From IMG/VR virus record IMGVR_UViG_3300037493_002362, positions 1 through 38,767 of that record: 38,767 nt of DNA. One strand, written 5' to 3'. The notes under the pieces are model-generated. The model was not told the DNA's origin. It worked only from the letters and a program-made list of their open reading frames with translations, and did no database searches. The DNA is from a virus. A program made the translations under genes and the position numbers. Numbering within the stretch: the stretch's first letter is position 1; each line of letters opens with the position of its first letter. Below are positions 1-38,767 of this stretch, in pieces.

Positions 1-127
1 CAACCTCTGACATAGACGTGCCGGATGCGGTCGCTTCTGCGCTGAAGTCGAATCTGCTGACTATCGAAGCCGCAAAGAACGACCTTACGCTCAAAAAGCA
101 CTTCACCGCACAGGCGTTAAACACAGT
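1..127. repeat. Terminal overlap, left copy
   Basis: These 127 bases are identical to 38641-38767. The repeat lies inside one reading frame that continues across the join, which fits a circular or circularly permuted genome better than a natural terminal repeat. A length of 127 is also a common largest k-mer in short-read assemblers, so an assembly overlap is the likeliest origin (inference). Confidence 0.95.
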
Positions 128-15579: not shown

Positions 15580-16026
15580 ATGAGCGAAGGAAAATTTATT
15601 AAAAAGAAAACATACTACACTGGTGTAGTGTATGAATGGAACTTACCGACTGGTAGTAGTTGCCCGTTTGCCTTAGAATGCAAAGTAACAGTTGATAGAA
15701 TATCGGGTAAGTTCGATGTTGAAAAAGGTGCGTATAGGTGCTACGCTGCAAGTGCTGAAAGATTCCCTGCTGTTAGGGAGCATAGGTGGAAAAATTTTGA
15801 CTTGGTTAAAAATAGTGGAATACCTACAATACCAAAAGATTGCAATGCAATAAGAATACACATGAGCGGTGATTTCTTTAACCAAAAATACTTTGATATG
15901 TGGGTGCAACTTGCAAAAGATAATCCCAATATTGAGATGTGGGCTTATACAAAGTCATTGCAATATTGGGTAAACAGAACCCAATCAACCCTCGAACGAT
16001 CGTTCCTGAAAAGTTGGCACAGCTGA
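15580..16026 (+). CDS. GP88-like protein, C-terminally truncated
   Basis: The 148-aa product resembles the GP88 family of phage proteins. It has the N-terminal LPTGSSCPFALEC motif, then YRCYAAS, a conserved RW-N, the IRIHMSGDFF segment and WAYTKSLQYWVN. Full members of the family are, as I recall, considerably longer. Here similarity ends at WVNR, about 15975, and the remaining 16 residues read a shifted ParB coding region. Codons are much more AT-rich than in the flanking genes. The biochemical function of the family is not established; conserved Cys suggest a metal or Fe-S site. It may be a remnant or a shortened active form. Confidence 0.65.
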   Translation: MSEGKFIKKKTYYTGVVYEWNLPTGSSCPFALECKVTVDRISGKFDVEKGAYRCYAASAERFPAVREHRWKNFDLVKNSGIPTIPKDCNAIRIHMSGDFFNQKYFDMWVQLAKDNPNIEMWAYTKSLQYWVNRTQSTLERSFLKSWHS

Positions 16027-16535
16027 AACAAAGTCTGACAGACTTCCCACAAATGCTCCTGCTCCGACCTATCGTAGTAGATGAAAATAATGTTCTATTG
16101 GGAGGCAATATGCGGCTTCGCGCTCTTAGAGAACTAGGCATCAAAGAGGTGTTAGTTCACGTGGTGTCCGGATGGACCGAAGAGCAGAAGAAGGAATTCA
16201 TTGTTAAAGACAATCTCAACTACGGTGACTGGAACTATTCGGTACTTGATTCATGGGATCAGGATAAGCTAGGCGCATGGGGTCTGACGACATGGTCGCT
16301 GAATCAGGAACAGAAAGAGATTCCCGAACCGTACACCAAACAGCAGCCGACAGGCGGTGATGCTCCTGCGCACGTTCCACACGTTCCGTCATTGAAGCTA
16401 CTGATCGACTTCAATATCAATGATTACCCTGAAGCTAGGCGACTGGTAGATACGTTGGTGGTAAGGGGCTTCGACTTCGAACAATTTCTACATGCGGCTC
16501 TGACCGAATCACTTAAAGCTACCGATGGCAATTAA
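15939..16535 (+). CDS. ParB-like nuclease-fold protein 1
   Basis: Reading from a GTG at 15939 gives 198 aa. The core is typical of the ParB/sulfiredoxin-like fold: NPRTI, LKQSLTDFPQML, RPIVVD, GGNMRLRALRELG, and FIVKDNLNYGDWN. The first ~12 residues lie in sequence that is also the end of the GP88-like gene, so the native N-terminus may have been replaced by recombination. A C-terminal domain of ~70 residues follows. ParB-like proteins are frequently linked to phage DNA-modification enzymes (Iyer and colleagues, 2013), where they may direct or sense modification. Confidence 0.75.
   Translation: MGLYKVIAILGKQNPINPRTIVPEKLAQLKQSLTDFPQMLLLRPIVVDENNVLLGGNMRLRALRELGIKEVLVHVVSGWTEEQKKEFIVKDNLNYGDWNYSVLDSWDQDKLGAWGLTTWSLNQEQKEIPEPYTKQQPTGGDAPAHVPHVPSLKLLIDFNINDYPEARRLVDTLVVRGFDFEQFLHAALTESLKATDGN
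15965..15985. repeat. Hairpin at the GP88/ParB junction
   Basis: ATTGGGT (15965-15971) and ACCCAAT (15979-15985) are perfect inverted repeats around seven bases. They lie exactly where GP88 similarity stops and ParB similarity starts, which marks a probable recombination or deletion breakpoint. Confidence 0.6.
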
Positions 16536-17094
16536 GCAGTACCCTATAGCGCACCTGAAGCCACACGCGGACAACCCAAGGGTAATTGACGATCACCGCA
16601 TGGCTACCCTAAAGCGGTCTATCGAAGACTTCCCTGAAATGTTGAAGATTCGACCTGTCGTTATTGATGAGGACAACACTATCCTAGCAGGAAATATGCG
16701 CTATCGGGCTTGTATGGAACTAGGCCATGAACAAGTATGGTGCGATCGGGTACGCGGTCTAACGGCTGAAGAAAAGCGTGAATTTGTAGTTAAGGACAAT
16801 GTAACCTATGGGCAATGGGATGATGAGGTGATCGAGCAGCACTTCAAAACAGACATGATGGAGCGGTGGACTGGCGATGCTACTATTGACTATGGCTTCC
16901 TAGACGAATTCATATCGATGGACGATGAACTAGCAGACAGGGCTAACGATGTTGTTCGCTCCATTGCGTTCCACCTACCCAATCTGTTCTACGAAGTTAA
17001 AGACATGGACGGTGCGCTTCGCGGTAATGGCGTTGACGTTGGTTCGGTGGTGGTGACCGCACTTAGATTAGCCGTAGCAGATGGTAAAGGTTGA
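16525..17094 (+). CDS. ParB-like nuclease-fold protein 2
   Basis: The 189-aa protein repeats the ParB-like core of its neighbour: DNPRVI, LKRSIEDFPEML, RPVVIDED, GNMRYRACMELG and FVVKDNVTYGQWD. The two are clearly related but diverged, and the C-terminal parts differ, so this is an old tandem duplication or two recruited paralogues. It overlaps the upstream gene by 11 bases and the downstream dioxygenase by 14, placing it in one translation unit with the modification enzymes. Confidence 0.85.
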   Translation: MAIKQYPIAHLKPHADNPRVIDDHRMATLKRSIEDFPEMLKIRPVVIDEDNTILAGNMRYRACMELGHEQVWCDRVRGLTAEEKREFVVKDNVTYGQWDDEVIEQHFKTDMMERWTGDATIDYGFLDEFISMDDELADRANDVVRSIAFHLPNLFYEVKDMDGALRGNGVDVGSVVVTALRLAVADGKG

Positions 17095-17863
17095 ACTATC
17101 AAGCGTTCCACATGACGTGAAGGTCGGGGACATCTGCTCTGACATAGAAGCTAACGTACTGGTAGATTCACTGTTCATGGAAGATGGGCGACCTATCGGC
17201 TTCTACCTGTCAAACATAGCTGCTCATTCGCATGAACTTTGGCGGCTTATTGAGGTGGCAAATGCCGAATTCAATTCCAAGCGTGTACCTAAGTCGGAAA
17301 TGCGTAGATCGAGCGGACTAGCCGACCCGTCAATGGAAGTGAAGCAATACTCTACCATCATCGGATCCGTTCCCTCGAAGCCCAACATGAGAAGGAACAG
17401 CCACAGGGTGTCGTCAGTTCATGGTGTACCGACCGCGCAGACCTTCATAAAGTCAATGCTACATGCTGCGCTCGAATCTGAACGGCTTATTGAAAAGTAT
17501 CTTCCACTTACCTACGCGGCTCAACGTGACTTGTTTGACAGGGAGATTCCGGAACATTGGCGATTCGGGAACCTGTTCACTTCATCAATATCCAACTTCA
17601 ATATAGCTGCTCCGTTCCACACCGATCGTGCGAATCTGCGCGATTGCGTTAATGTCATCATAGTCAAGAAACGATGGGCGAACGGTGGAAACACGACCGT
17701 ACCTGACTACGCTGCGACAATGAACTCCTGCGATAACTCGATGCTCGTTTACCCTGCATGGAAGTCTATTCACGGGGTCACACCGATTCACCTACTCAGG
17801 CGCGATGGCTACCGCAATTCCTTCGTGTTTTATCCGCTCAAAGCGTTCCGTAAGGATGCCTGA
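17081..17863 (+). CDS. TET/JBP-like Fe(II)/2-oxoglutarate DNA dioxygenase
   Basis: The 260-aa protein carries the iron-binding triad of this superfamily: His180 and Asp182 in PFHTD, and His231 in SIHGV, followed by Arg245 that would hold 2-oxoglutarate. The surrounding LFTSSISNFNIAAPFHTD, GG-TTVPDY and YPAWKSIHGVTPI segments match the TET/JBP family found in phages beside ParB-like genes. Family members oxidise the 5-methyl group of thymine or 5-methylcytosine in DNA. With no cytosine methylase or hydroxymethyl-dUMP synthase in sight, thymine is the favoured substrate (inference). Overlaps neighbours by 14 and 8 bases. Confidence 0.8.
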   Translation: MVKVELSSVPHDVKVGDICSDIEANVLVDSLFMEDGRPIGFYLSNIAAHSHELWRLIEVANAEFNSKRVPKSEMRRSSGLADPSMEVKQYSTIIGSVPSKPNMRRNSHRVSSVHGVPTAQTFIKSMLHAALESERLIEKYLPLTYAAQRDLFDREIPEHWRFGNLFTSSISNFNIAAPFHTDRANLRDCVNVIIVKKRWANGGNTTVPDYAATMNSCDNSMLVYPAWKSIHGVTPIHLLRRDGYRNSFVFYPLKAFRKDA

Positions 17864-18848
17864 AACGATCTTCGAGAATGTCGGCTTCGACCGGAGCGTG
17901 GTAAAATGGGAAGAACACCTGTATGACCTTACTCCTGTTGAGAAGCACGGGGCGGTATGGTTCAAACGGGAAGATAAATTCGCTCCACTAGGCTATGGGT
18001 CAATCAATGGAAGTAAACTAAGGCAATGTATTTGGCTGATTCGCGGCTTCGTTACCGAAAAACAAGCCAAGGGTATTGTATCAGGGTCGGTAGTCGGATC
18101 GCCACAGCACCCGATGATAGCGGCTATCTGTAAGCATTATGGCATCGGGTGTCTTATTGCCACACCTGCAGCCCGAATAGAAGATCATGAGTACCTGACT
18201 ATGGCTCGTGATTGGGGGGCTAAGTTTTACCGAACAAAGATAGGCTACGCGAAAGCCCTTCAAGCAACAGCCCTAAAGCTATCAAAGCGGCTATCTAGGC
18301 ATGAACTACTAGAAACTAACATCACGGTCGATGAACGACTGAACAGCGCACATAGGATAGCGGCATTCCATGAAGTGGGGTCGTATCAGGTGACTAACCT
18401 ACCGGAGCATATCGAAACGATAATCATACCTGCAGGGTCGTGTAATTCGGTGGTGTCGGTGCTGACTGGTATCATCAGGTTTAAGCCCAAGAACCTGAAA
18501 CGTGTCATAATGATGGGCATTGGAAATTACGGCTCAAAGAAGCCGCAGCACGTGCAACAACGGCTCAAAATTGTCGGCTCAATTATGGGCTTCGAACCCG
18601 ATGAATTTTTCAGTTACGCATGGTCGGCAGAACGTAATTCTCTGTCCATCGACATCATGCATCACGACCTTAACGGGTCGGGCTTCTGCTCGTATGCAGA
18701 CCTGATGCCGTTTCAAGAAAATGGAATTTCGTTCCACCCAAGATATGAAGGAAAAGTAATGAATTACATGCACGATAACCCTGACTTATTTGGCACTTTT
18801 CAGGACGATAAAACGCTATTTTGGATCATCGGAAGTGGTGTTTCTTGA
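17856..18848 (+). CDS. Fold-type II PLP-dependent enzyme
   Basis: I prefer the ATG at 17856 (330 aa, eight-base overlap) to an earlier one at 17805. FKREDKFAPLG and NGSKLRQ with Lys54 as the Schiff-base residue place it in the tryptophan-synthase-beta superfamily, near ACC deaminase and D-cysteine desulfhydrase. The phosphate loop reads IPAGSCNSV, where relatives often have GSGGT-like sequence. Related PLP enzymes are predicted in phage thymine-hypermodification operons to act on an amino-acid moiety attached to the base. The exact reaction is unknown. Fifteen bases after its stop a duplicated non-coding element begins. Confidence 0.8.
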   Translation: MPETIFENVGFDRSVVKWEEHLYDLTPVEKHGAVWFKREDKFAPLGYGSINGSKLRQCIWLIRGFVTEKQAKGIVSGSVVGSPQHPMIAAICKHYGIGCLIATPAARIEDHEYLTMARDWGAKFYRTKIGYAKALQATALKLSKRLSRHELLETNITVDERLNSAHRIAAFHEVGSYQVTNLPEHIETIIIPAGSCNSVVSVLTGIIRFKPKNLKRVIMMGIGNYGSKKPQHVQQRLKIVGSIMGFEPDEFFSYAWSAERNSLSIDIMHHDLNGSGFCSYADLMPFQENGISFHPRYEGKVMNYMHDNPDLFGTFQDDKTLFWIIGSGVS

Positions 18849-18994: not shown

Positions 18995-20098
18995 ATGCAA
19001 AAAGGTCGTTATTGCCACCTGAACGGGATAGAAGAAGTGACTGAATTACAGGCAGGAATGGACTTCCGATTGCCACAATATCGAAGGGAAGTTTTCATGC
19101 GGTTTTATGAATTTCACCTTCGGTATAAGGCACACGCAGGGGCTGTTTATTACGCAATTCCATTCATAATATCGCGGTATAATCTTGACATGGAGCAGCG
19201 TTTATGGTTCGCTTTCATCAATGGATGCACACAGAACATCATCACCACAAACATCATTTTTCAACGATTTCCTGACCTGCTCCTGCTCGATATTCAAGAA
19301 CTGGAACGGTACTTTCAAAGCCACTATTCGCAATTCGGATGGGACACAGACCGTAGGTATCACAAGTCGAATTTCATTGATTGTGTGCGGTCGTATCGGG
19401 CTTCGCTCGGTGGCGGCTCACAGGTAGATGTGATGGATCGGCTCACGGTGACTGGCGATCCGTTTCAGACCTTCCGGAACTATTGGGAGCATACCCGTAC
19501 TAAATTGCTGTCGTTCGGCAGACTATCCACCTTCAGCTATCTTGAATACCTGCGATTGGTCGGGGTGCAATTAGATTGCCCTGAACTATTCATTGACGAC
19601 CTGAGCGGAAGCAGGTCACATAGGAACGGGGTGTGCAAGGTGCTTGGTAGGGATGATATTGATTGGTGGAAACAACCCGAGCACCCGTATGACAAAGAGG
19701 GCATCGCGTGGTTGACCGATGAGGCGGCTCTGCTCCTGTCGGAAGCCAAGGCGCGAATAGATCACCCTGACGTTAGCTACTTCACGCTCGAAACAACTCT
19801 ATGCTGCTACAAGTCGTGGCATCGACCGAACAGAAGATACCCGAACGTGTATAACGATATGTTCTTCGAACGGATAATCTACGCGATGCAGAAGTGGCAA
19901 ACACGTGAAGTGGGTGAAATATGGTGGGAATGCAGAAGATTGTCGCTACCCAAACATCTGCTACTCGAAGCCAATAGGAATGACAAAGGGCTGCACCCGA
20001 TCAAACAGAACCACTATCGGCTTACCGGAGAAGTAATAATGATGGATCGTGAATACCCTTGCTTTAAAAACAGATACAATGACCGACACTCCAAGTAA
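18995..20098 (+). CDS. 5-hmU DNA kinase-type helical domain protein (aGPT-Pplase2-like)
   Basis: The 367-aa protein is mainly helical. Its N-terminal half (YRREVFMRFYEFHLRYKAHAG, then FINGCTQN and a following FP) resembles the helical domain that accompanies the P-loop kinase in phage 5-hydroxymethyluracil DNA kinases, originally predicted as a glutamyl/putrescinyl-thymine pyrophosphorylase clade. Later conserved-looking points are ETTLCCYKSWHR and RRYPNVYNDM. The kinase P-loop itself is encoded by the next gene, overlapping by 20 bases. Together they may form the enzyme that activates oxidised thymine for further modification. Recognition is by pattern only. Confidence 0.65.
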   Translation: MQKGRYCHLNGIEEVTELQAGMDFRLPQYRREVFMRFYEFHLRYKAHAGAVYYAIPFIISRYNLDMEQRLWFAFINGCTQNIITTNIIFQRFPDLLLLDIQELERYFQSHYSQFGWDTDRRYHKSNFIDCVRSYRASLGGGSQVDVMDRLTVTGDPFQTFRNYWEHTRTKLLSFGRLSTFSYLEYLRLVGVQLDCPELFIDDLSGSRSHRNGVCKVLGRDDIDWWKQPEHPYDKEGIAWLTDEAALLLSEAKARIDHPDVSYFTLETTLCCYKSWHRPNRRYPNVYNDMFFERIIYAMQKWQTREVGEIWWECRRLSLPKHLLLEANRNDKGLHPIKQNHYRLTGEVIMMDREYPCFKNRYNDRHSK

Positions 20099-20561
20099 CA
20101 TACTCCTGATTGGAAATTGTGGCGTGGGTAAGACATGGGTGATGCTCCAACTCATATCCCGTTTACGCATGAGCAAACAGGTCAAGTACAATAGGCTATG
20201 GTGGCTAACAAACGGTCGGGTCAACATGATTGGCAAGTATGACAGAACCGCGTGGCAAGGGTCGGATAAATTGTCCATGGCTGTGATGTTAGACGTACCT
20301 GCGTACCTAGACTCGTTTAGCGACAAGTACACCGTATGGGAAGGTGATCGATTCACTAACAGCAAGTTCATTGCAAAAGCAAAGCCCTTCATCATTCGAA
20401 TTGAAGGGTCGGGTGAAACGGGAAGATACCTTCGCGGCTCTGAACAGTCAGAACGCCACCTTAAAGCAATCGCAACAAGGGTGTCTAACATTCCTGCTAA
20501 CATGACCGTTGAAAGTAGTAAGGCGGCTCTTGATTACATTTGCTCACTATACGACTTCTAA
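20079..20561 (+). CDS. P-loop 5-hmU DNA kinase-like protein
   Basis: I chose the ATG at 20079 (160 aa); a GTG at 20049 is less likely. A Walker A motif, GNCGVGKT, lies at 12-19; KYDRTAWQGSDKLSMAVM follows at about 53-70 and WEGDRFTN at 87-94, which is the signature of the kinase domain that phosphorylates 5-hydroxymethyluracil in phage DNA. A basic helix, SERHLKAIATRVSNI, closes the domain. The gene ends two bases before the terminase small subunit, tying modification to the packaging operon. Confidence 0.75.
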   Translation: MTDTPSNILLIGNCGVGKTWVMLQLISRLRMSKQVKYNRLWWLTNGRVNMIGKYDRTAWQGSDKLSMAVMLDVPAYLDSFSDKYTVWEGDRFTNSKFIAKAKPFIIRIEGSGETGRYLRGSEQSERHLKAIATRVSNIPANMTVESSKAALDYICSLYDF

Positions 20562-20562
20562 G

Positions 20563-20895
20563 ATGGAACAGAACAGAACCGAACATACTAAAAAGGCAAT
20601 GGTAGCCGCTTTGACTAAGACTTTAGGGGTGGTTACTCCTGCTCTGAAGATGGCTGACGTTGGCAGAACAACCTTCTATCAATGGTTGAAAGACGACCCT
20701 GAATTCGCGCAAGAGGTGGACGATCTTGATGATGTGTCGCTCGACTTCGCTGTCCATGCCCTGCATAAGAAGATTAAGAACGGGAATATTGCTGCGATTA
20801 TCTTCTACCTCAAAACGCAGGGCAAACATAGGGGCTTTGTCGAGCGTACCGAAACGGTGTTCACAGACATTAATGTGGAAATGACCGATGATTAA
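20563..20895 (+). CDS. terS: Terminase small subunit
   Basis: From the ATG at 20563 the protein is 110 aa. An N-terminal helix-turn-helix (LGVVTPALKMADVGRTTFYQWLKDD) is followed by a helical region and AIIFYLKTQGKHRGFVER, a common TerS pattern. It recognises the packaging start on phage DNA and loads the large subunit. It overlaps terL by eight bases. Confidence 0.85.
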   Translation: MEQNRTEHTKKAMVAALTKTLGVVTPALKMADVGRTTFYQWLKDDPEFAQEVDDLDDVSLDFAVHALHKKIKNGNIAAIIFYLKTQGKHRGFVERTETVFTDINVEMTDD

Positions 20896-22252
20896 ACGGT
20901 CACGAGCGCAAACGGGTGTGCAGGTTCGAATTCCGATGGGTGTCTTTCTACCTGTCTATCGACACTTGGTAAACTCCACCGCTGACATAGATTTCCTTTG
21001 GGGCGGTCGTGATAGTGGCAAGAGCACGTTCGTTGCGGAAGTGCTGCTGATTGAATGTATGACCCTACCGTATTTCCGCTGCATTCTAATCAAAAAGACC
21101 CATGAGAGCATAAAGGACGCGCAGTGGCAAACGCTAAAGGACATAGCCGAACGGTGGGGTGTGGCTCACCTGTTTAGCTTTAGCAAAAGCCCTCTTGAAA
21201 TTCGCTGTCGAAACGGGAACAAGTTCATATCAAGAGGGTGTGACAAGCCGGAAAAGATTAAGTCTATCAATAACCCATCGCACGTGTGGTATGAAGAGGG
21301 CAATCAGTTGTCTGCTGACGACATGATCGTGATAAGTACGACCCTGCGCTCGAATCAGGGCAAGGTGAAACAGTACTTTAGCTTTAACCCTGAAGCCGAT
21401 GGCGACTACACGAAACATTGGCTATGGCTATACTTCAAGGATCATATTCCAACAGGTGTCTATTCTTTTGAAAATGTTCTGCGAGTACCTGATGGCAAGG
21501 GTGGAACGCTGAACATAAGCTACACTTCCACGCACTCGACCTACCACAACAATCCCTACTGCACGAATGAGCGGAAAGCGGTGTTAGAGAACCTAAGGAC
21601 AATTGACGAATACTACTATGAGGTATTCACGCTCGGACGGTGGGGAAACAGGTCGAACGAAAGACCGTTCGTATTCGCATACGAGCCTAGCAAACACAAT
21701 GGTACTCCTGCGCTCAATAATGAAGAGGTACTGTACCTGTCGTTCGACTTTAACCGCAACCCGATTTGCTGTTCTGTTATTCAGCACTATGACGGGGCGG
21801 TGTATGTCCTGCGCACGATCAAAATAGCCAACAGTTCAATCTACGAACTATGTGACCGCATAAAGACGCTCTACCCAAGGTCGCTGTTCATGGTGACTGG
21901 CGATGCAACAGGTCGGGCTTCGTCTGCATTGGTGCAGGATAACATGAACTACTACAAGGTGATAATGCAGTCGCTCGGACTAGGAATGATGCAGCTACGT
22001 GTACCTAAGGCGAACCCACGCATGAAGGACAATAGGCTAATAGTCAATGCTGTATTGGCTAACTACCCTGTCACGGTGCATGAGGTCGATGCGCATGAAC
22101 TTTTGGCGGACTTCAAGCAGGTTCGGTGCAATCCTGATGGCACTATTGAAAAAGGCAACCGTGATGACCCTGCCCAACAAGCCGATGCGCTCGACACATT
22201 CCGTTATTGGTGCAACGCAATTATGCTACCCTACATTAATTTAGCAACTTAG
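20888..22252 (+). CDS. terL: Terminase large subunit
   Basis: The 454-aa protein has Walker A GGRDSGKST at 39-47, Walker B HVWYEEGNQ around 132-140 and the coupling FSFNPE around 164-168. The C-terminal nuclease domain shows Asp286 in LSFDFNRNP, Asp338 in VTGDATG and a final acidic cluster (DPAQQADALD). It pumps DNA into the prohead and cuts it. Length is near the family norm. It follows the modification island, while the portal gene is 13 kb downstream. Confidence 0.95.
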   Translation: MIKRSRAQTGVQVRIPMGVFLPVYRHLVNSTADIDFLWGGRDSGKSTFVAEVLLIECMTLPYFRCILIKKTHESIKDAQWQTLKDIAERWGVAHLFSFSKSPLEIRCRNGNKFISRGCDKPEKIKSINNPSHVWYEEGNQLSADDMIVISTTLRSNQGKVKQYFSFNPEADGDYTKHWLWLYFKDHIPTGVYSFENVLRVPDGKGGTLNISYTSTHSTYHNNPYCTNERKAVLENLRTIDEYYYEVFTLGRWGNRSNERPFVFAYEPSKHNGTPALNNEEVLYLSFDFNRNPICCSVIQHYDGAVYVLRTIKIANSSIYELCDRIKTLYPRSLFMVTGDATGRASSALVQDNMNYYKVIMQSLGLGMMQLRVPKANPRMKDNRLIVNAVLANYPVTVHEVDAHELLADFKQVRCNPDGTIEKGNRDDPAQQADALDTFRYWCNAIMLPYINLAT

Positions 22253-23154: not shown

Positions 23155-23419
23155 AGCAAGGCTCGAACTCAATAGTGAGGCTGACTACCCTGAGCGAACG
23201 CTATGTCAGGTGAACCGCGAAATGTACAGGCTATTGAAAACTAAAGGCATCACCGATGAGGATCCTGCTATCAGGTTACTCTACGAAGCGTATGACATGG
23301 GAAAGAAGTTGAACAACAAACTGCGACAATACAAGTACAACTATGACGATGGGTGGTGGTCTGAAAATAAACTATCGGGCGGCAACCTATGGGATGATGA
23401 CGAAATAACACCCGTATGA
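23144..23419 (+). CDS. Hypothetical protein, 91 aa
   Basis: The start at 23144 overlaps the upstream gene by 11 bases. The C-terminal part is acidic and aromatic (YNYDDGWWSE, LWDDDE). Its stop overlaps the methyltransferase start. Function unknown. Confidence 0.5.
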   Translation: MATEARLELNSEADYPERTLCQVNREMYRLLKTKGITDEDPAIRLLYEAYDMGKKLNNKLRQYKYNYDDGWWSENKLSGGNLWDDDEITPV

Positions 23420-24057
23420 AAGTAACCTATATCGATGTTGGGCTTCATCGCTCTGCTCCGGAAGTAAGTATGTTCATTCAGGTGTGCGAACGGCTCGGAC
23501 TAGATTATCACGTCTATGGCATTGAAGCCGACCCGTTGTATGCTCCTGATCTTGTGGCACTATTTGCCGACAACCCTAAGGTCGAAATATTCTCGTTCGC
23601 TGTCGCTGCTGAAGATGGTACGTGTCGGCTGTACAGGTCTGCATTCCTAAACGGGGAAGGGTCGTCAATCTACGCCACAAAGAACAACGTAGATCCATCA
23701 GATTCCGTGGAAGTTCTGTCGCGGAAACTATCGGGCTTTATGAAGGGAATTGACCTGCATGACGCAGTTGTCCTGAAGTGGAATATCGAAGGGGCTGAGT
23801 ACCCAATGATGAACGACCTAATTGAGTCGGGGCTTTACCGCAATATTGACCTTTGGTGCGGAGCAGGTTCCGATATGTACAAGGTGGCGGAGTTAGCCGA
23901 ACTAGAGTATAGCTACCACTTGGCGATGCTGCAGCACGGTATAGGGCAATTCAAGTTCCACGATCACTACGACCCATGGCTAAAGAAGCGGATGATTGAT
24001 GAAATGGAATTCAGGCTGACCGCACTTCGCGATGCCTACTACCTACGCCATGCGTAG
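23416..24057 (+). CDS. FkbM-family methyltransferase
   Basis: The 213-aa protein has the Rossmann-type layout of FkbM methyltransferases, with IEADP at 36-40 for SAM binding and KWNIEGAE at 121-128 as the family's motif near the active site. FkbM enzymes O-methylate sugars and other small groups. It runs head-on into a glycosyltransferase gene on the other strand with a 19-base overlap. The two plus a third gene may form a glycan-modifying cassette acting on virion proteins, DNA or host surface (inference). Confidence 0.8.
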   Translation: MKVTYIDVGLHRSAPEVSMFIQVCERLGLDYHVYGIEADPLYAPDLVALFADNPKVEIFSFAVAAEDGTCRLYRSAFLNGEGSSIYATKNNVDPSDSVEVLSRKLSGFMKGIDLHDAVVLKWNIEGAEYPMMNDLIESGLYRNIDLWCGAGSDMYKVAELAELEYSYHLAMLQHGIGQFKFHDHYDPWLKKRMIDEMEFRLTALRDAYYLRHA

Positions 24058-24665
24058 AAGATCCCTGTAAGATTCCTGAACACTGCTCCGTTCGCATACA
24101 TTCTACGCCACAGGTCTATGTCCTGTTTCCTGCGCAGGGTCGGATTGTACCCACCTACCGCTAACACAGCAGACTTCCGATAAACAACCGTTCCGTGATT
24201 GACAAGCCAATCTGCATTGGAACTGGAAGAAGTCCGCGGAACAGGTGCTTCAGGATGATCGGTAATGAATAGGGGCTGACGTCTGATGTCGTTCGACTGG
24301 AATGCGAATAGGTTAGTGCCAAGTACATCACAATCCGGATTGTCCTGTAAGTACGCGAACTGATGCATTAACCGTTGGGGTGAACACACATCATCACTAT
24401 CCATGCGTACAATGAACTCCGTATCGCACAGGTCGATGGCATGGTTCAATACTGATGCAAGACCTGCGTTCGGGCTGAGTCGTATTACTTCCATGCGACT
24501 AGACAGATACTCTATTGCATCGATGGTGTCCTGATCCGTGGAACAGTCGTCAATCAGGATGAATCTGAACGGCTCGTCAATGTCCTGATTGACTATTGAA
24601 CTTACGGCTTCTAATAGGTGGTCGGGTCGGGTATTGTAAACAGGAATGACTACGGTGAAGTTCAA
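24039..24665 (-). CDS. Family 2 glycosyltransferase
   Basis: The 208-aa protein is a GT-A fold transferase. VVIPVYN is at the N-terminus, IDD at 38-40 lies in the nucleotide-sugar site, and MDSDD at 88-92 is the metal-binding DxD-like motif. A later region (GGYNPTLRRKQDIDLWRRM) holds the acceptor-side acid motif. No membrane segment. Encoded on the minus strand together with the methyltransferase at 24662. The substrate is unknown. Confidence 0.88.
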   Translation of the reverse strand: MNFTVVIPVYNTRPDHLLEAVSSIVNQDIDEPFRFILIDDCSTDQDTIDAIEYLSSRMEVIRLSPNAGLASVLNHAIDLCDTEFIVRMDSDDVCSPQRLMHQFAYLQDNPDCDVLGTNLFAFQSNDIRRQPLFITDHPEAPVPRTSSSSNADWLVNHGTVVYRKSAVLAVGGYNPTLRRKQDIDLWRRMYANGAVFRNLTGIFYAWRR

Positions 24666-25114
24666 GCCCTTCTACCGTAGGTCACAAATATATTTCCGTG
24701 CTGAAATGTATGCGCTCCGTTGGCAAACTTACCTGACAATGCTAGGCAGCATGAATCGTATGAGGTCTGACCCTCGGTAATGACGATAAGGTGCTTACCG
24801 CTTGGAATAATGTCAATCGCTGAACTCGATCGGCAAATAACTATGTCTGATTTCAGTTTCATGATGGTCGTATCGTCTGCGCTCTTGGCGTGGAATCTCG
24901 AACTCATGCCCGTGATTCGCTTGGCTAGGGCTATTTTGACCGGATCGGCATCAACACCCTGATAGCGTGGAAAGCCCTCGGATTTCAGGTGCGCTCCGAA
25001 CTCACCCGAGCCACAGCCTATTTCTAAAATACCCTCCTTTGAAGGGTCTATTTTGGCTTCAAGATAACTGATGATCGCGGATATTACGCCTAGCTTAACG
25101 AGTGACTGGTACAT
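24662..25114 (-). CDS. Class I SAM-dependent methyltransferase
   Basis: The 150-aa protein has the SAM-binding motif ILEIGCGSGEFG at 29-40 and VDAD at the end of the second strand. It is shorter than many family members and the C-terminal half is reduced. It overlaps the glycosyltransferase start by four bases, and both are read from a promoter at 25138-25145 that lies back to back with the late promoter at 25131-25163. Confidence 0.75.
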   Translation of the reverse strand: MYQSLVKLGVISAIISYLEAKIDPSKEGILEIGCGSGEFGAHLKSEGFPRYQGVDADPVKIALAKRITGMSSRFHAKSADDTTIMKLKSDIVICRSSSAIDIIPSGKHLIVITEGQTSYDSCCLALSGKFANGAHTFQHGNIFVTYGRRA

Positions 25115-38558: not shown

Positions 38559-38767
38559 ATGGCCAATCTAGGTAAACTGATTATCGCACTTCTCCAATCG
38601 GCAGGAATTGATCCTGAAACAGACGGGTTAGCACCGCTGACAACCTCTGACATAGACGTGCCGGATGCGGTCGCTTCTGCGCTGAAGTCGAATCTGCTGA
38701 CTATCGAAGCCGCAAAGAACGACCTTACGCTCAAAAAGCACTTCACCGCACAGGCGTTAAACACAGT
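38559..38767 (+). CDS. Putative scaffolding protein, 5' part (continues at 3-809)
   Basis: The ATG at 38559 opens MANLGKLIIALLQSAGIDPE and continues in frame through the terminal overlap to the stop at 809 of the opposite end, giving 296 aa when the circle is closed. See 3-809 for the rest. Confidence 0.75.
   Translation, partial: MANLGKLIIALLQSAGIDPETDGLAPLTTSDIDVPDAVASALKSNLLTIEAAKNDLTLKKHFTAQALNT
38641..38767. repeat. Terminal overlap, right copy
   Basis: Identical to bases 1-127. See the left copy for the interpretation as a circular-assembly overlap. Confidence 0.95.

Follow-up and report, generated by a model that had tools for sequence, protein, structure and literature searches.

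The window, i.e., the whole 38,767-nucleotide stretch of DNA analyzed here, is a single IMG/VR contig (38767 bp) in which a predicted base-modification locus lies immediately 5' of the terminase genes. The features of interest are:

1..127, no strand: direct terminal repeat, an exact copy of 38641-38767
15939..16535, plus strand: second ParB_N-domain protein (domain and PHROG match)
16525..17094, plus strand: ParB_N-domain protein directly 5' of the TET gene (domain and PHROG match)
17081..17863, plus strand: 2OG/Fe(II) oxygenase of the TET/JBP fold, predicted to hydroxylate T in DNA to 5hmU (fold, residues, PHROG)
17856..18848, plus strand, start at 17805 also possible: PLP fold-type II enzyme, homologue of ViI orf226 (PALP, 1e-6)
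18995..20098, plus strand: PF18724 amino acid:DNA transferase (ADDT), related to ViI orf247 (Pfam, 2.5e-19)
20049..20561, plus strand: P-loop kinase, predicted 5-hmdU DNA kinase (family profile; Walker A GNCGVGKTW)
20509..20895, plus strand: terminase small subunit-like protein, directly 3' of the kinase (homologues similarly placed in many TET loci)
20888..22252, plus strand: terminase large subunit

The first 127 bases of the contig repeat its last 127 exactly, and the scaffold-protein gene becomes a single ORF once the contig ends are joined; thus, the contig is circular-complete, with a genome of 38,640 bp (38.6 kb). Its recognized replication genes encode RecT, an exonuclease-like protein, RusA, and an initiator-like protein, and no DNA polymerase or nucleotide-metabolism gene was recognized in the 38.6-kb genome. 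A Shine-Dalgarno motif was found upstream of none of 35 genes (12% by chance), which fits the Bacteroidota phage proposed in the preliminary description and makes that host plausible, though short of proven.

That description also placed a 5-hmU kinase-like protein beside the oxygenase. A P-loop kinase is indeed present, but the neighborhood comprises three genes, encoding the PLP enzyme, ADDT, and the kinase. The PLP enzyme matches phrog_3650 (6e-78) and ViI orf226 (phmmer, 1.8e-64), shares 38% identity over 98% with homologues in 157-kb Vibrio phages, and has a predicted PLP lysine, K54, within an NGSKLR motif; it is predicted to decarboxylate the amino acid once attached. Within our set of TET loci, it was seen solely in the window. 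ADDT is similarly related to ViI orf247 (phmmer, 4.2e-26; profile A3, 6e-58). The P-loop protein carries, in addition to its Walker A motif, the motifs GSDKLSMAV and EGDRF, and a profile of its family reaches M6 gp54 (3e-9), ViI orf67 (1e-8), and ViI orf243 (2e-5). None of the curated kinase models matches it directly, but Ploopntkinase3 and HMUDK_HMUD1 are matched by its relatives, and it is predicted to be a 5-hmdU DNA kinase. IMG/VR scans made with the PLP enzyme alone or the kinase alone returned no relatives, which reflects the narrowness of the back-translated patterns. Several members of the kinase family are labeled as terminase small subunits, namely Zemanar gp4, LilMcDreamy gp5, Acadian gp5, M6 gp54, and ViI Vi01_061c (records L084, L098, L102, L107, and L108).

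The ParB_N protein encoded at 16525-17094 is a possible DNA-targeting partner of TET; of 101 TET loci surveyed, 84 have a ParB_N gene nearby. At the other end, the position of the locus 5' of the terminase genes, as in actinophages, would fit modification before packaging. A GP88-family protein at 15580-16026 has 148 residues and may be shortened, since its homologues in TET-linked phages, 65–71% identical, have 184–205. Farther downstream, the two SAM enzymes were found as previously described, an FkbM protein at 23416-24057 and a small class I enzyme at 24662-25114. The stretch 24039-25114, adjoining FkbM, holds a glycosyltransferase 2 and the class I methylase on the minus strand among plus-strand genes and, together with FkbM, looks like a glycan island outside the TET operon.

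An ORF encoding 260 residues coincides exactly with the TET/JBP-like oxygenase assigned to 17081-17863, and its fold and catalytic residues agree with that identity. The protein matches PHROG 6059 strongly (1.7e-44) and Pfam Tet_JBP weakly (E 5.8e-6, 26.1 bits, below the 34.9-bit gathering cut-off); some relatives score above the cut-off, suggesting that the Tet_JBP model under-scores this branch. Relatives are encoded on 175 IMG/VR stretches, of which 80, with 49–63% identity, were retained. In the PDB, a sequence search with the window's TET alone found nothing relevant, and a profile of the family reached TET2 at E 0.05 only. An AlphaFold2 model based on an alignment of 52 relatives (pLDDT 93.5) resembles four solved TET structures above all others, with TET2 as the best match (VIA Z of 18.5 for TET2, 17.7 for NgTet1, 17.1 for CcTet, and 16.8 for CMD1), whereas non-TET folds score lower (FTO, Z 14; AlkB, near 13). 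All 52 relatives conserve the iron ligands H180, D182, and H231 and the 2OG-binding R245. Taken with these residues, the modeled fold confirms membership in the TET/JBP dioxygenase superfamily. The epithet 'JBP-like' holds for the reaction proposed from genomic context, but not for the architecture: all 260 residues align to the oxygenase fold, leaving a bare oxygenase domain with no J-DNA-binding domain. Two database labels were set aside as annotation errors: 'queuine tRNA-ribosyltransferase' (PHROG 6059, NC_020847, NC_020857), borne by proteins that are TETs, and the MED4-184 'DNA methylase' beside TET, which is a ParB_N protein.

Structure prediction had been suggested as a check of the active site; it recovered the TET fold, but the active-site residues do not discriminate T from 5mC. 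The predicted base pocket is formed by N185, Y251, and L253, which a profile alignment equates with TET2 Asn1387, Tyr1902, and His1904. In solved 5mC TETs, cytosine N4 is contacted by Asn1387, Asp234, or Asp350, and N3 or O2 by TET2 His1904, NgTet1 His297, CMD1 Arg418, or CcTet Arg393. The window's enzyme shares with TET2, NgTet1, CcTet, and CMD1 the stacking aromatic Y251 as well as the fold and Fe/2OG residues, but is only 9–15% identical to them, and its Leu253, invariant in 52 relatives, replaces the His/Arg base contact and departs from all four. The Asp/Asn contact to N4 has its counterpart in N185, a residue also compatible with T. We dropped the Asp-to-Asn change at this position as a sign of thymine and regard N185 as neutral, because TET2 uses Asn1387 on 5mC and ADDT-linked TETs vary there. 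For instance, the distant ADDT-linked TETs of L087-L094 have Asp and Arg at two pocket positions, the pair that CMD1 uses for 5mC. The pocket thus does not decide between T and 5mC.

Genomic context is an independent line of evidence. The earlier observation that the phage has no cytosine methyltransferase was borne out: a PF00145 profile search of the genome gave zero matches, Pfam scans of ~30 ORFs (including a minority of the tail genes) found no cytosine-C5 methylase, and a six-frame scan of the complete genome found no C5-methylase motifs. The ORF and motif scans are needed to back the profile result, since hmmscan detects in L010 a small C5-methylase that the PF00145 genome search overlooked. 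A thymidylate-synthase (TS) homologue (PF00303) was likewise not found in the complete genome.

We then compared the source of the hydroxymethyl group across phages with ADDT. Thirty whole records were searched for four families and ADDT was found in 21; four further ADDT records overlooked by that search (L092-L094 and Montesquieu) bring the total to 25, a small set, partly chosen by TET and including near-duplicates, in which Tet_JBP is present in 21 and Thymidylat_synt in four (L095, Montesquieu, M6, and ViI), with none having both and none having neither. The records reached via ADDT alone (L084 and L086-L096; n = 12) divide into ten with TET and two with TS. At the position marking uracil-type enzymes, i.e., those acting on dUMP rather than dCMP, each of the four TS proteins has Asn (PMC8670742). 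Of the 30 records, just one has a PF00145 match, ~65 kb from its TET. In L096/L110, the TET domain lies in frame with ADDT on one contig; the first 80 residues of the ADDT part are 66% identical to the window's ADDT, and the frame is lost only at an N run. The strict alternation of TET and TS, together with this fusion, suggests that TET supplies the hydroxymethyl group in ADDT systems, replacing dUMP hydroxymethylase.

Thymine in DNA is therefore the best-supported substrate of the window's TET, and very probably the right one: the kinase, ADDT, and PLP enzyme belong to the 5-hmdU pathway, no C5-methylase was recognized in the complete genome, and TET takes the place of a dUMP hydroxymethylase. 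The preference for thymine over 5-methylcytosine voiced in the preliminary description is thereby strengthened. Action on finished DNA fits better than action on the nucleotide pool, since no polymerase or nucleotide-metabolism gene was recognized. In the reaction order that we infer, the oxygenase would, after replication, flip thymine out of the phage DNA and hydroxylate its 5-methyl group, with Fe(II) and 2-oxoglutarate, to give 5-hydroxymethyl-uracil; the P-loop kinase would phosphorylate the new hydroxymethyl group; ADDT would exchange the phosphate for a free amino acid; and this amino acid would be trimmed by the PLP enzyme, of the ViI orf226 type, decarboxylation to a small amine being the simplest possibility. 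Our first guess at the product is the ViI-like 5-(2-aminoethoxy)methyl-dU, and the modified DNA would withstand host nucleases.

The characterized TETs are 5mC enzymes, and the window's TET could likewise act on 5mC made by a host methylase, with the kinase, ADDT, and PLP enzyme then building a hypermodified cytosine. The equivalence of N185 to TET2 Asn1387 would agree with this, as would the PF00145 C5-methylases in a few relatives' records (3 of 46, with L009/L010 added by other searches). However, the genome is complete with no methylase found, the adjoining genes come from a pathway known on 5hmdU, the alternate TS enzymes are of the dUMP type, and TET2 His1904 corresponds to an invariant Leu in the window family; we consider a cytosine product unlikely. 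Hydroxylation of free dTMP or dTTP, with 5hmdU incorporated at replication, finds a parallel in the TS-type route, which works on nucleotides. It is nonetheless highly improbable, given that the TETs with the closest solved folds act on DNA, that polymerase and nucleotide enzymes were not recognized in the genome, and that the product would not be kept apart from host DNA. Oxidation of another base, such as N6-methyladenine, has a precedent in CcTet, which is active on both 5mC and 6mA, but in CcTet the residue corresponding to N185 is Gly, and a side chain at this site blocks 6mA; moreover, a motif scan of the window genome found no adenine methylase motif and the downstream enzymes suit 5hmU, so that we give this reading hardly any weight.

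The proposed pathway resembles several known systems while differing from each. The Salmonella phage ViI and the Pseudomonas phage M6 have homologues of the window's kinase, ADDT, and PLP enzyme, but make 5hmdU as a nucleotide, using a dUMP hydroxymethylase (a TS homologue) and their own DNA polymerase, whereas the window has TET and neither of these was found. Nor were the radical SAM protein and HMUDK_hel, the helical protein of TS-type systems, found in the window. The individual enzymes of the M6/ViI route are reportedly the subject of work by Lee et al. in 2018 and 2022. In this route, a 5hmdU DNA kinase acts on 5hmdU and group transfer follows, after replication and via the phosphorylated intermediate (PMC6449724). 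The actinophages Tonitrus (Rhodococcus), Zemanar (Mycobacterium), and LittleMunchkin (Gordonia) share the gene order ParB, TET, ADDT, kinase, terminase, but their TETs are distant (~27–32% identity to the window's), no PLP enzyme was recognized in them by homology, and their hosts are actinobacterial. The Tonitrus TET, aGPT-PPlase2, and kinase have been annotated as thymidine hypermodification genes (PMC11955845). The kinetoplastid thymidine hydroxylases JBP1 and JBP2 belong to the same superfamily and carry out the reaction proposed here (T to 5hmU in DNA); unlike them, the window's TET has no J-DNA-binding domain, and its product would proceed to amino-acid transfer rather than glucosylation. 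Finally, in the phage systems combining TET, a C5-methylase, and a TET-associated glycosyltransferase (TAGT), TETs ~50–63% identical to the window's adjoin TAGT. The window has no TAGT and no C5-methylase was found in it, and most TAGT relatives are also without a linked C5-methylase.

The wider family exchanges its partners freely. In the 101 loci, TET lies near TAGT in 35, FkbM in 23, and ADDT with or without the kinase in 17 (a slightly low count that omits, e.g., Zemanar's), and the kinase occurs without ADDT or a glycosyltransferase in ten. A tree of 58 close TETs implies at least 15 changes of partner label, against a least possible number of three; for instance, L049 (ADDT/kinase) is sister to L050 (FkbM) with support of 100/99. 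Searches with PF00145 found no methylase in two Prochlorococcus phage records or in four or more additional IMG/VR genomes shown by end repeats to be complete. A subfamily whose TETs work with ADDT in some phages and with glycosyltransferases in others probably has a common substrate. The partner swaps between close TETs and the complete relatives without PF00145 invite a broader reading, which we hold tentatively and rate somewhat below even: the whole window-like subfamily would hydroxylate thymine, and the many TAGT and FkbM phages that have no linked C5-methylase would make base-J-like or O-methylated 5-hydroxymethyl-uracil in their DNA.

Phage operons combining TET with a transferase have already been described or predicted; what is new in the window is the ViI-type PLP branch and a genome without a recognized polymerase. 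A thymine-specific phage TET, if real, would be the bacterial equivalent of the reaction that JBP performs in kinetoplastids. Its existence would imply a second entry into 5-hmdU hypermodification, requiring neither nucleotide-pool takeover nor a phage polymerase and hence open to small phages, and the enzyme could serve as a reagent for introducing 5hmU into DNA. The substrate question of a large, partner-swapping TET family would become directly testable, and, should thymine be the substrate of the subfamily, base-J-like DNA would be widespread in phages.

Several related loci hint at further diversity. In L041, L047, L049, L065, and L018, ADDT, TET, and the kinase are accompanied, instead of by the PLP enzyme, by class-II glutamine-amidotransferase-like and GNAT-like proteins, judged by eye to form a different tailoring branch. 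Directly 5' of ADDT in L087:3260-4042, L088:7219-7998, and L089:7189-7974 lies a SAM-methylase-like protein that has a GGVG/AGIG stretch resembling motif I but no clear Pfam match. A glycosyltransferase and a sulfotransferase lie 5' of TET in L062, L064, L071, and L081 (L064:6698-9885), with an adenylylsulfate kinase and a nucleotidyltransferase also 3' of TET in L064; a sulfated sugar on a DNA base is possible at these four loci. In the Arthrobacter phage Prairie (L101:4728-6999), TET is followed by genes annotated as a glycosyltransferase and a glucosaminyl deacetylase, which suggests an amino sugar on the base.
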